From Bacillota bacterium (lineage in GTDB: Bacteria; Bacillota; Desulfitobacteriia; Desulfitobacteriales; JAJXUE01): a stretch of 61,860 nucleotides of DNA. This document shows positions 12,901 to 50,863 of this stretch, one piece after another (position 1 is the first letter of the stretch; every line of letters starts with the position of its first letter). The stretch is taken from NCBI GenBank assembly GCA_021811155.1, contig JAJZPO010000006.1, positions 1 to 61,860 of the forward strand, given 5' to 3'. The position numbers were made by a program, and so were the translations under genes. The notes beneath the pieces are model-generated. The model was given only the letters and a program-made list of their open reading frames with translations, was not told where the DNA came from and ran no database searches.

Positions 12901-15900
12901 TCATTGGCCTGGAGGGGAGGGAAATTCAAATGACGCAGTTCCATCTGGCTGTAAGTCCAGGCCAGCTGAAAAGCCCGCTCCGCAGACCCGTGGTCCTGGT
13001 ACTTTTCCGCCAGGCGGATGACTTCCTCGCGGTTCTCGCCGATGCCTGTACCAAAGGATACCCTTACTGTCTGGCCCGGGCGGATCCTTACGCGCTGGCG
13101 CAGACTCATGATGGGGTCCAGTACCGCTCCGGTGGTGTTGGAAAGGGGTTGGTTGGGCTCCATGGCCTGGGGCCTGGCCAATGTTTTGCCCCTGCCGATG
13201 AAGCGGGAACGATCCGTCTCGTATTGAATTGACCCTACCCCTTCACCCTCCAGCGCCACGGTATGCATCAGCCAGAGCCTGGCCTGGTTTTCCCGCCTTG
13301 GCCGCCGGGAGGCTAAAAGGGCCCGGTGCGTAAATTCGGTTTGGATAAACAGGTTGCCGAAGGCCGGATGGGCCAGGTCCTCGCTGGGGCGGGCCAGGAC
13401 TGTTTCGAAATAGCTGGTGATCTCCAGCGTACGGTCATGCTGGCTGTGGTTGGTGAGAGAAAGCCTGCGCACCTCGACCTGATCTTCCGGCGATACACAA
13501 ATTTCGGTACGGGTGACTATATTGCCATCTTTGCGGTAATACTCCACCCGGTCCGGAGCGAAAGTCACTTTGTAGCCATCGCCCTGAACACCGCAGGGGA
13601 GAAAACCCGAAGACCAGACCGAACCGGAATTCAGGTTCTGGATATAGAAATACATGCCCCAACTGTCCCTGGTGACATCTTCCCGCCAGCGGGAAACGGA
13701 GATGTTCCCCCACCTGCTGTAACCCGAGCCCGCATTGCTCAACATCACTGAATACTGCCCGTTAGCCAGGAAGTGGGTCACAGGAATCACGCTGTCGGCA
13801 GTATTAAGCGATATATAGGCAGGCCCCTCCATGTCAGGCATGTCCCAACCGCCCGCCTCGATTCTGTGTTCCTCGGGCTGTGACGCGATATGGGTTTCCG
13901 CCGGCGCACGTTCCTGCAGCAGCAATTCACTGGACTGGATTATGGCATCGGCGTGGAAGCGGCGCTGCATGATATTCCCATGCAGAACATTATCCAAAGC
14001 CAAAAGGGACATGCCCTGGTGGTGCGCCATAAAACTCTGCACTATCCCCAGGCCCGGTCCTACCGGCACCCGTTCCGAAGTATAGTCTATAGCCTCAAAT
14101 AAGCCGTAAGCCCCCGCAAATCCCTTTTCCCGCATGGTTTTCAGGTTTGCCAAGGCTGCGCGGGGATCAACCATCAGGGCCAAAAAAGTAGCATATGGGG
14201 CAATGACCAGTTCCTGCACCAGCCCCCGCTTCAGTCCCAGCCCCGGCACACCGAAAGCTTTGTACTGATAGTTTCGCTGCGCGTCAAACATGTAGAATCC
14301 GGACTCGGATATTCCCCAGGGGATGGAGCGCTGAGCGGCGTACAGGCGCTGTACTTCTACCACCGACCTGTATGTTTCGTCCAGCAAGGTTCCCGGAAAA
14401 GTGCGCATGACCAGAAGCGGCATCAGAAACTCAAACATGGTCCCGCTCCAGGAAGCAAGGCTTCTCCTTCCCTTAACCCTGGTCAAGGTCCGCCCCAGCC
14501 GGAACCAATGGCTCTGAGGCACTTCGCCCCTGGCGATGGCAAGATAACTGGCTTGTCTTGCCTCCGAGGCCAAAAGGTCATAATATGATTTGTCCAGAGC
14601 CTGGTCGTTGATCCTGTACCCAATGGAAAACAGCTGCCGCTGTTCATTGTAGAGCGGTTTGAAGTCCGTGGCATCAACCATCGTCCGCAGCCGTTTCTGC
14701 AACTCTTCACTCTGGCGCAGCAGGTCCTGGGCTTGCTCCTGCGCCCCGGCCGACCATTCTGCCCCGGCTCCGCTTTCCTGCAAACGGACATAGCTTTCGG
14801 CCAAGCGGCGGAGGTCGAGTCCGGCGGTCAACCCAGCCAGGGTATCTGCCTCCGTCCCGCTTACCTGGCCCAGCCAGGGATAGAGCGCTGTCAGTTCGCT
14901 CTTGAAGGATTCTATCATGCCCATCAAATGCTGCGCCCAGAACTCTGACTTTTCCGGCAAGCCGGAGGGCAGGGAGAATTCCTGCAGCAAAGTGTGAAAC
15001 TGCCTGATGTCCAGCTCCTCTTCCTGCAGCAGCTTATCCAATGAGCGTCTAAAAGACTCAAACTCAGGATAGGCCTGATCCAAATCCTCCAACAGCAGTT
15101 CATAGGTTTGCCTGAGGCCCCTGAGCATACTCATATTCAAAACAGGGCCCTTGACCATTTCCTGCAGTCCCGCCAGCAGGGTGAGGACGTAAACCACAAA
15201 GTTTCCGCTGTCCACGCTGGAGACGTAAAGAGGCTGCAGCGGCTGCAGGGTCTTGGTGTCATACCAGTTATAAAAATGCCCCTTCCAGCGCTCCAGTTTT
15301 TCCAGGGTATTCAGGCTCTTGGCCGTACGCCTGAGCGCTTCCGTCAGGGTTAAATACCCCTGGTCCCTGGCAGCCAGGTTGGTCAGCAAAGCCAGGCCCA
15401 TGTTTGTGGGCGATGTTCTGTGAGCCACCCCGTTAGGGGGGTCTGCCTGCACATTGTCGGGCGGGAGCCAGTTATCATCATCGGCCACAAAATCCTCAAA
15501 GAAAGCCCAAATCCGCCGCGCCCACCGGTTAAGTTCCGCCTGTTCCCCGGGAGAGAGGGTCCCGGTTCCCTGGGCCAGAGGCAGACTCACCTTATAGGCC
15601 AGCCAGGGCGCTGCCAGCCAGATCAGGGCCAGGGGGGAAAACATTACAGCCGCTCCGGGTGTGAGCCAGAGCAAAACGGCAAAATAGAGCAGGACTGCAG
15701 CCACGGCCGGAAACATCAATTGCCAGGATGTCCTGTGTCTGGTATCCACCCTCCGCTCCGTGTCAGCAGCCGTTTCCCATTCCAGCATACCCCTGTGGCT
15801 GACAAACTGGCGGTACAGGCTGCGCGCGATGGCATCAAGCTGAACATAAGCCTGAAATGGCAGAAAGGCCAGAAGCAGAAAAACCTGGGTAAGGCTTTCC

Positions 15901-21904: not shown

Positions 21905-21952
21905 GTAGAACTCAGAATTCTGACTCCTGACTCCTGACTACTGACTACTGCT
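21905..21952. repeat. tandem CTGACTCCTGACTACTGA repeat
   Basis: Runs of 7-mers of the form CTGACTC/CTGACTA, preceded by GAACTCAGAATT, forming a degenerate tandem array. It is related to the arrays at 7276, 38179 and 50824. Confidence 0.65.
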
Positions 21953-30982: not shown

Positions 30983-31833
30983 TCACCTCGCCGGTTGCCC
31001 TTGCGCAGCGGCCGGATCAGATAAACTGTCAAGCCGGTAGTTAGCAGCACAATCACCAGCCCGGTGAGCAGGTACCCCTCCCACAGAGGCATTGCGCCTG
31101 GTCCGCCGCCAAACTCGCCGTTCCCGGAAAAAGGAATAAAGCCGCTGCCTGGGAGCGCCGAGCCCAGGGCCGCAAGCGGATTGAAGTAAAGTATCCTGGG
31201 AATAGAGGGGAACTGGCCCGGAGCCAGGACCCGGGAGCCCAGCTCCCGGCTCATAATCCCGAAAAACAATGTGCCCGCCATCAGGAAAAACGTCGTCATA
31301 TAGGCCCCTACTATGGCTACCGGCGTCCGCTTGAAAGCCGCCGAAAAGAAAATCCCGATGCTGCCCAGGATTATGGTGGTTGCCAGCAGAACCCCGGCAG
31401 CCTTGAGCAAGTCCAGCAGGGACACTCCGCCAAACAGGAAGACAATGCTGAACAGGGGCAGAGATGAGATTATGAGCAGCAGGATATAGCTTATGGCTGA
31501 GAGAAGCTTGCCCCAGGTTACAGCGAAGGGTGAAACCCTGGTTACCAGGAGCAGGGGCAGGGTCTGCCTCTCCCTTTCCCCGCTGATTATTCCCGCGGTC
31601 ATACCGGGTGTCAAAAAGGCAATCAGTAAGAGTTCCAAAAGGGCCAGGAGCCCGAATATTTCGATTCCCAGGCGCAGAGTGTTTGTCCCGCCGAAGCTGA
31701 ACCTGGTCTGGGTATAGTAGAAGAAGCCGCCCACCAGGGACAGGACCCCGAGGTAGACAGTGATCAGAAGCGGGGATCGCCAGGTCCTTACCCGGTCCTT
31801 GAGTTCCTTGGCCAGCACGGGATTGATTGTCAC
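30979..31833 (-). CDS. ABC-2 type transporter permease
   Basis: A 284-residue membrane protein with six predicted helices. It begins NPVLAKELKDRVRTWRSP, an N-terminal amphipathic stretch common in ABC-2 permeases, and has the conserved PGMTAGIISGERERQTLPLL after the second helix. I chose the GTG at 31833: its GTGA overlaps the ATPase stop, and GGGGGGTGG precedes it. The much longer open frame upstream is a shadow of the ATPase gene. With the adjacent ATPase it forms an ABC exporter; the substrate is unknown and may be extracytoplasmic components of the VWA complex. Confidence 0.88.
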   Translation of the reverse strand: MTINPVLAKELKDRVRTWRSPLLITVYLGVLSLVGGFFYYTQTRFSFGGTNTLRLGIEIFGLLALLELLLIAFLTPGMTAGIISGERERQTLPLLLVTRVSPFAVTWGKLLSAISYILLLIISSLPLFSIVFLFGGVSLLDLLKAAGVLLATTIILGSIGIFFSAAFKRTPVAIVGAYMTTFFLMAGTLFFGIMSRELGSRVLAPGQFPSIPRILYFNPLAALGSALPGSGFIPFSGNGEFGGGPGAMPLWEGYLLTGLVIVLLTTGLTVYLIRPLRKGNRRGE

Positions 31834-38110: not shown

Positions 38111-38178
38111 TCTCCTCCGGCAAGACCCCGCTTACAGGGTTCTTACCTATTAGCTTTTCCCATTTTTACTATTCAGGT

Positions 38179-38251
38179 ATTCAGAACTCAGTAGTCAAAC
38201 TCAGAATGATCCTAGCTCATACTCCTTCCGGCTCCTGACTTCTGACTCCTC
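38179..38251. repeat. GACT/TCAGA low-complexity repeat upstream of polA
   Basis: TTCAGAACTCAGTAGTC and AACTCAGAAT on the left face GGCTCCTGACTTCTGACTCC on the right, giving loose inverted symmetry around about 38215. It shares words with the arrays at 7276, 21905 and 50824. It lies in the 255-bp gap between dinB and polA, where the polA promoter must lie. Confidence 0.6.
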
Positions 38252-50298: not shown

Positions 50299-50327
50299 AT
50301 CTTATAATTAATCACGAAAACTGTCAA
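50299..50327 (-). promoter_or_regulatory. sigma-A promoter of the liv operon
   Basis: Minus strand TTGACA (50322-50327), a 17-base spacer, and TAAGAT (50299-50304). The predicted start near 50292 gives a leader of about 240 nt. Confidence 0.6.
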
Positions 50328-50502: not shown

Positions 50503-50530
50503 AAGCAAAACCGCCCCATGCGGAGCGGTT
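50503..50530 (-). terminator. terminator of the structured RNA
   Basis: On the minus strand AACCGCTCC pairs with GGGGCGGTT (one U-G pair) around GCAT, followed by TTGCTTTG. It lies 20 bp after the closing stem and separates the RNA gene from livJ. Confidence 0.8.
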
Positions 50531-50757
50531 AGAAAGACATATTTATTAGGGGGGAACGCCGTTATCCGGTTGGTTGAACACAGACTTACAAACCTCTGAA
50601 ATTTCTCCACAACTTTCTAGGTCGGATTCAAACAAGGAACTCCTTGGCGTTCACAGAAAGGTTTCCACACATGGGTTAGACACTAACACACAGGCGAGCT
50701 TACCTTGATACCAAGCTATTGCACACAGATACAGATGCAATCACCGGCGTTCCCCTT
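50503..50757 (-). ncRNA. candidate structured small RNA, about 250 nt (6S-like or unclassified)
   Basis: A consensus promoter starts transcription near 50756. The RNA begins GGGGAACGCCG (50755-50745), which pairs perfectly over 11 bp with CGGCGTTCCCC (minus strand of 50561-50551), closing a domain of about 205 nt. Inside are several local hairpins, such as TTGCA/TGCAA, GTTAG/CTAAC and CAAGGA/TCCTTG. A terminator follows at once. No reading frame of note is present. A closed domain of this size with a strong promoter suits 6S RNA, but the multi-hairpin interior fits that poorly, so the family is open. Confidence 0.65.
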
Positions 50758-50763
50758 AATTAC

Positions 50764-50792
50764 ATTATACCCACTCACAGCGCTTTCGTCAA
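50764..50792 (-). promoter_or_regulatory. consensus sigma-A promoter of the structured RNA
   Basis: Minus strand TTGACG (50787-50792), a 17-base spacer ending in TG-rich sequence, and a perfect TATAAT (50764-50769), seven to eight bases before the start of the closing stem. This is the best sigma-A promoter match I found in the window. Confidence 0.8.
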
Positions 50793-50823
50793 ACCTTTCT
50801 TTTTTTGTCCCTCGCTCCAATCA

Positions 50824-50863
50824 TTCTGACTTCTGAGTTCTGAGTTCTGAGTTCTGAGTTCTT
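50824..50863. repeat. TTCTGAG heptad repeat
   Basis: Four perfect tandem copies of TTCTGAG at 50831-50858, preceded by TTCTGAC and followed by TTCTTA. It belongs with the degenerate arrays at 7276, 21905 and 38179. It lies between the promoter of the structured RNA and the terminator of the mini-genes. Confidence 0.75.

Follow-up and report, generated by a model that had tools for sequence, protein, structure and literature searches.

A candidate stand-alone structured RNA gene with a nearly invariant 3' domain in an uncultured genus of the Bacillota

The locus and its anatomy

The window analysed here is a 61,860-nucleotide stretch of contig JAJZPO010000006.1 (assembly GCA_021811155.1), from a Bacillota bacterium of the order Desulfitobacteriales. 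On its minus strand, between 50800 and 50500, the elements of a putative RNA gene follow one another in the order TTGACG, 17 bases, TATAAT, 7-8 bases, GGGGAACGCCG, 183 bases and CGGCGTTCCCC, and about 20 bases then separate CGGCGTTCCCC from a GC-rich terminator hairpin, AACCGCTCCGCATGGGGCGGTT, with TTTTGCTTTGTT behind it (Table 1). The arms GGGGAACGCCG and CGGCGTTCCCC pair exactly over 11 bp and enclose about 205 nt. The first-pass annotation of this DNA had described a promoter just before an 11-bp closing stem, a closed domain of about 205 nt and a strong terminator after it, and both description and coordinates proved correct. It had also called the promoter the strongest of the window; this promoter is indeed alone within the window in having a perfect -10, but its total of consensus bases is equalled by a second site (TTGACA-17-AATAAT, at 31614 on the minus strand).

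Table 1. Features of the RNA gene and their positions in the window
Feature	Position	Strand	Remarks
Sigma-A-type promoter: -35 TTGACG, 17-nt spacer, -10 TATAAT	50764..50792	-	11/12 consensus bases
RNA body, 206 nt	50551..50756	-	Covariance model R1; predicted 5' end at the closing stem or shortly ahead of it
Closing stem, 5' arm, 11 bp	50745..50755	-	Exact pairing; invariant in the congener
Faster-evolving 5' part, predicted hairpins	50646..50744	-	16 substitutions and one 1-nt indel relative to the congener
Near-invariant 3' domain	50551..50645	-	1 substitution in 95 columns relative to the congener
Imperfect rod-like hairpin (predicted), inside the 3' domain	50565..50638	-	Same fold predicted for both sequences
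29-codon TTG frame	50546..50635	-	AAGGAG 4 nt before; rival reading, probably not the function
Closing stem, 3' arm, 11 bp	50551..50561	-	Exact pairing; invariant in the congener
Intrinsic terminator, AACCGCTCCGCATGGGGCGGTT then TTTTGCTTTGTT	50509..50530	-	9-bp stem; hairpin kept in the congener

Inverted repeats of the 11-bp type are not rare by themselves, with a mean of 3.0 per dinucleotide-shuffled window, and the weight of the closing stem comes from its combination with the promoter and the terminator, plus conservation, and not from the inverted repeat alone. Because such repeats are common in shuffled windows and the interior of the domain folds no better than shuffled sequence (see below), the anatomy by itself would leave the status of the locus as a gene open.

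Several further features surround the RNA gene. Directly upstream lie two tandem frames for tiny glycine-rich membrane peptides of 35 and 37 aa (51187-51082 and 51043-50930, minus strand), YjcZ-like by eye and with no Pfam or NCBIfam match. Downstream, the stretch from the RNA terminator to livK contains another promoter-like site, TTGACA-17-TAAGAT (50327-50175, minus strand), followed by a long near-perfect hairpin, GGGGCCCAGC...GCTGGGCCCC, and TTTT; this hairpin resembles the attenuator or terminator of a livK leader and has no match in Rfam. A dispersed repeat of TTCTGANTTCTGA-like units flanks the RNA gene (50815-50855, and elsewhere in the window at 38163-38250 and 21912-21948), and is found on many contigs of the same genome.

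Conservation and predicted fold

Among 151 genomes searched, one other genome, a congener, carries a DNA match to the locus, on contig JAJYNB010000198.1 of a metagenome-assembled 'Bacillota bacterium'. The aligned block is 88% identical over 301 nt; it begins slightly ahead of the -35 and extends to the terminator, while the DNA flanking it on both sides is unalignable except for a patch of dispersed repeats. Within the block neither hexamer of the promoter has changed, nor have the 13 bases ahead of the -35, while the promoter spacer carries 4 changes; the bases of the terminator hairpin have changed and its loop is 1 nt longer in the congener. The element has its own promoter and terminator and is kept as a unit apart from its flanking genes, and on the evidence of this alignment conservation as a unit shows a gene. 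That an RNA gene exists here, presumably transcribed, is in our judgement very probable. The earlier proposal of an independent structured RNA gene of no recognised family holds up well, given the conserved unit in the sister species and the lack of any Rfam match (see below).

Substitutions are distributed very unevenly along the gene. In the 206-column alignment of the body, columns 1-111 hold 16 of the 17 substitutions, and columns 112-206 the remaining one. For comparison, dinB of the same two genomes is 85% identical (about 15% divergence), so that the 5' part diverges roughly as fast as a protein gene and the 3' part is nearly frozen. In the frozen domain it is the sequence, and not pairing alone, that is unchanged on both strands of the predicted hairpin.

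The fold of the interior is less clear than its conservation. Folding of the whole domain is more stable than that of shuffled sequences (z = -2.96 for the window and -3.61 for the congener). With the closing stem removed, however, the interior is no better than shuffled sequence (z = -0.62 and -1.02), so that most of the folding signal derives from the closing stem and the inner hairpins are weakly backed by energy. The rod-like hairpin of the 3' domain, judged by energy alone, reaches z of -1.7 and -1.5 in the two sequences. Predicted folds are multi-branched in both species, so the several local hairpins that had been noted inside the domain are recovered as predictions, though the interior z values lend them little energetic support.

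The substitutions themselves offer a second view of the structure. Against the MEA structure the 17 substitutions break 3 pairs, compared to a random mean of 6.3, a value reached by 4% of random mutants; against the centroid structure they break 2, compared to 6.0, which 1% of random mutants reach. If the substitutions are randomised inside the variable part alone, the test loses strength, with values of 2 to 7% for broken pairs and 34% for energy. No compensatory change was seen, that is, no pair altered on both sides between the two sequences compared. Given this weaker signal and the lack of two-sided changes, the structure of the interior is to be read as a model. The alignment of homologous intergenic regions that the first-pass annotation had proposed gave a conserved block in the congener and, with two sequences, no covariation.

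Known families and phylogenetic range

Neither the locus nor its counterpart in the congener matches any of the 4227 Rfam families at the gathering score, and at E values up to 10 neither gives a credible family. A covariance-model scan of the locus, including 6S RNA (RF00013) and raiA, had been suggested from the outset, and no known family was matched.

The search for relatives of the RNA itself used a covariance model, R1, built from the two sequences of the window and the congener, a basis from which distant relatives could be missed; it scores 252 bits at the window locus and 245 bits in the congener. Beyond these two species R1 found nothing in 74 genomes of the order or 83 of the class, nothing with looser filters in 38 relatives, and nothing else in two draws of about 400 genomes of the phylum, the second of which was centred on another genome and had no positive control. 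Likewise, blastn against 150 relatives gave no homolog outside the genus. The sister genus, G002, has both dinB and the tRNA, but the region around them holds no match to the RNA; unfiltered R1 searches of G002 (dinB and pyk regions) and of G005 (dinB region) also gave no homolog.

A number of weaker candidates were set aside. The best unfiltered match (19.9 bits, at 14196-14245 of locus L056) is a bidirectional terminator-like hairpin that was matched on both strands. An 18-mer scan of GTDB returned, besides the congener, Pseudarcicella, Shewanella and Saprospiraceae, none of them backed by the covariance model; exact short matches in viral contigs were similarly unsupported, a single 30-nt match in plasmids is due to chance, and no relative was found in phages. 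The RNA is known from two genomes of one genus. Since its range is this narrow, a lineage-specific regulator is more likely than a housekeeping RNA that has been missed.

Proposed mechanism, rival readings and known systems

The features described above can be combined into a working model. The gene would be transcribed constitutively by the housekeeping sigma factor (sigma-A), starting at or just before the closing stem and ending at the downstream hairpin, to give a stand-alone small RNA of about 250 nt. The 5' and 3' ends of its 206-nt body would pair to close the RNA, which probably protects the 5' end, and the body would fall into a 5' part that varies and a 3' arm that is nearly frozen and most likely serves as the working surface. 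The RNA may act as a structured RNP-type RNA in the style of 6S or raiA, with a bound protein. We judge a stand-alone, sigma-A-driven structured RNA that works through its frozen 3' arm, probably bound to protein, to be the best explanation overall, with confidence that is evenly divided for and against it.

Whether the 3' arm binds a protein or another RNA is the point on which the readings lie closest. A target mRNA, paired to a seed in the frozen 3' arm of a trans-acting antisense sRNA in which the closing stem merely stabilises the molecule, would likewise freeze a sequence, and the fact that the 3' domain is unchanged on both strands of its predicted hairpin is consistent with such a role, as are the promoter and intrinsic terminator, both typical of sRNAs. 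However, the frozen block is about 95 nt long and predicted to be largely paired, so that it is long for a seed and less open to pairing than seeds usually are. A frozen stretch of this length with an imperfect rod as its predicted fold is somewhat more in keeping with a surface for protein binding than with a short antisense seed, and we therefore lean towards the RNP mechanism, though with a little less than even confidence, and hold the antisense reading to be rather unlikely.

A frozen sequence could also be a coding one. The 29-codon frame in the 3' domain begins at a TTG preceded by an SD-like AAGGAG, is open in both species and contains a sole substitution, which is synonymous (TCC to TCT); the locus might then be a dual-function or small-protein mRNA encoding the peptide MFESDLESCGEISEVCKSVFNQPDNGVPP, with the structure secondary. 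Yet, with dinB codons for unchanged residues differing in 31% of cases between the same two genomes, a lone change across 29 codons falls short of what selection on a protein alone would give (binomial P 0.0003), and the constraint therefore acts on the nucleotides. Furthermore, the stop is not conserved, the frame in the congener continuing through the terminator, and just 4 nt separate the SD-like motif from the TTG. No family matches the peptide; in 299 genomes its strong matches are the two loci themselves, with no convincing relative, and those weak matches that were looked at, in two relatives, proved to be ferredoxins. We regard the coding reading as improbable. The original statement that no coding frame fits had passed over this frame, but stands in so far as the frame is unlikely to explain the conservation. 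Two other frames were rejected: a 14-codon GTG frame in the 5' part (50744-50700) shows a few synonymous-looking changes, but its length and stop differ between the species and it is taken to be a chance frame, and a 44-aa frame on the plus strand differs at about a third of its last 22 residues between the species and is not coding.

The size of the RNA, its closing stem and its strong sigma-A promoter raise the possibility of a divergent 6S RNA, or a 6S paralog that binds RNA polymerase, and the genome of the window (G000) has no RF00013 match above noise (13 bits). However, RF00013 exceeds its cut-off in 59 of 61 relatives and gives no match at this locus, either at the gathering score or at E values up to 10. 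The congener has a canonical 6S RNA (113 bits) at aspS-tcdA on another contig, besides the RNA gene described here. In G000, which is 99.5% complete, neither 6S RNA nor tcdA was found, and at first sight the RNA gene might have replaced 6S; an assembly gap is the simpler explanation. In both G001 and G002 the 6S gene lies between aspS and tcdA, and contig C122 of G000 starts (1-150) within 150 bases of aspS, inside the dispersed repeat, which makes a break in the assembly at the repeat the most likely reason for the missing 6S. With the 6S region of the congener as query there are 58 matches in G000 in all, dozens of which are the TTCTGANTTCTGA-like repeat. Several of the repeat matches lie within a few hundred bases of contig ends, which indicates that the repeat probably breaks the assembly; the same repeat also flanks the 6S locus of the congener. 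A 6S identity for this RNA is therefore very improbable, and the suggestion was not borne out.

Least probable of all is a riboswitch or attenuator acting in cis as the leader of the livKHMGF operon: although the RNA lies on the same strand about 500 bases upstream of livK, its terminator and the separate promoter-like site at 50327 intervene, and in the congener no gene follows on the RNA strand, the neighbour being convergent, so that the relative does not share the downstream gene. Both species have dinB and tRNA-Leu(CAA) in the neighbourhood, the distance from tRNA to RNA being about 11 kb including the liv operon in the window and 1.7 kb with a convergent peptidase-like gene in the congener, whose contig carries no liv operon. 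As this neighbourhood is kept and the downstream neighbour differs, the RNA is a stand-alone gene and not the leader of a transport operon, and its adjacency to the amino acid transport operon, to which attention had first been drawn, is incidental.

The RNA gene is real and undescribed by Rfam, and is one of the stand-alone structured bacterial RNAs rather than something categorically new. It is a credible new orphan RNA, although the idea of a new RNA class, compatible with the Rfam result, must be set against a known membership of two genomes of one genus. More tentatively, it may represent a new structured RNA family of one uncultured genus, an abundant RNP alongside 6S whose nearly invariant 3' arm binds a partner. 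Stand-alone structured RNAs of similar length whose ends pair, 6S and raiA/ModT among them, tend to play central roles, and further examples still turn up. The gene is well delimited, and the frozen 3' arm is an internal pointer to its working part.

Among known systems, retron ncRNAs (msr-msd) are also about 200 nt and closed by a long terminal stem, a likeness that the RNA described here shares, but no reverse transcriptase gene is adjacent among the neighbouring frames in either species. 6S RNA (RF00013), which binds RNA polymerase and serves as the template for pRNA, is alike in size class, closing stem and possession of its own promoter; its rod with a large central bubble is not predicted here, where the fold is multi-branched with a weakly supported interior. 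The raiA motif RNA, or ModT (RF03072), is a stand-alone, multi-branched RNA of Bacillota with a core of about 205-215 nt, a sigma-A promoter and a terminator (PMC11706538), and resembles our RNA in all these respects, including a size of about 205 nt. In contrast, the RF03072 model has no match at the RNA locus, none of the 31 nearest genomes is over its cut-off, and raiA is found in over 2,500 species compared to two for the RNA described here. The published raiA model contains two pseudoknots and the elements P1-P8. With orphan trans-acting bacterial sRNAs the gene shares an intergenic position, its own promoter, an intrinsic terminator and a narrow phylogenetic range; it differs from them in the 11-bp pairing of its body ends and in an unusually long frozen 3' domain.
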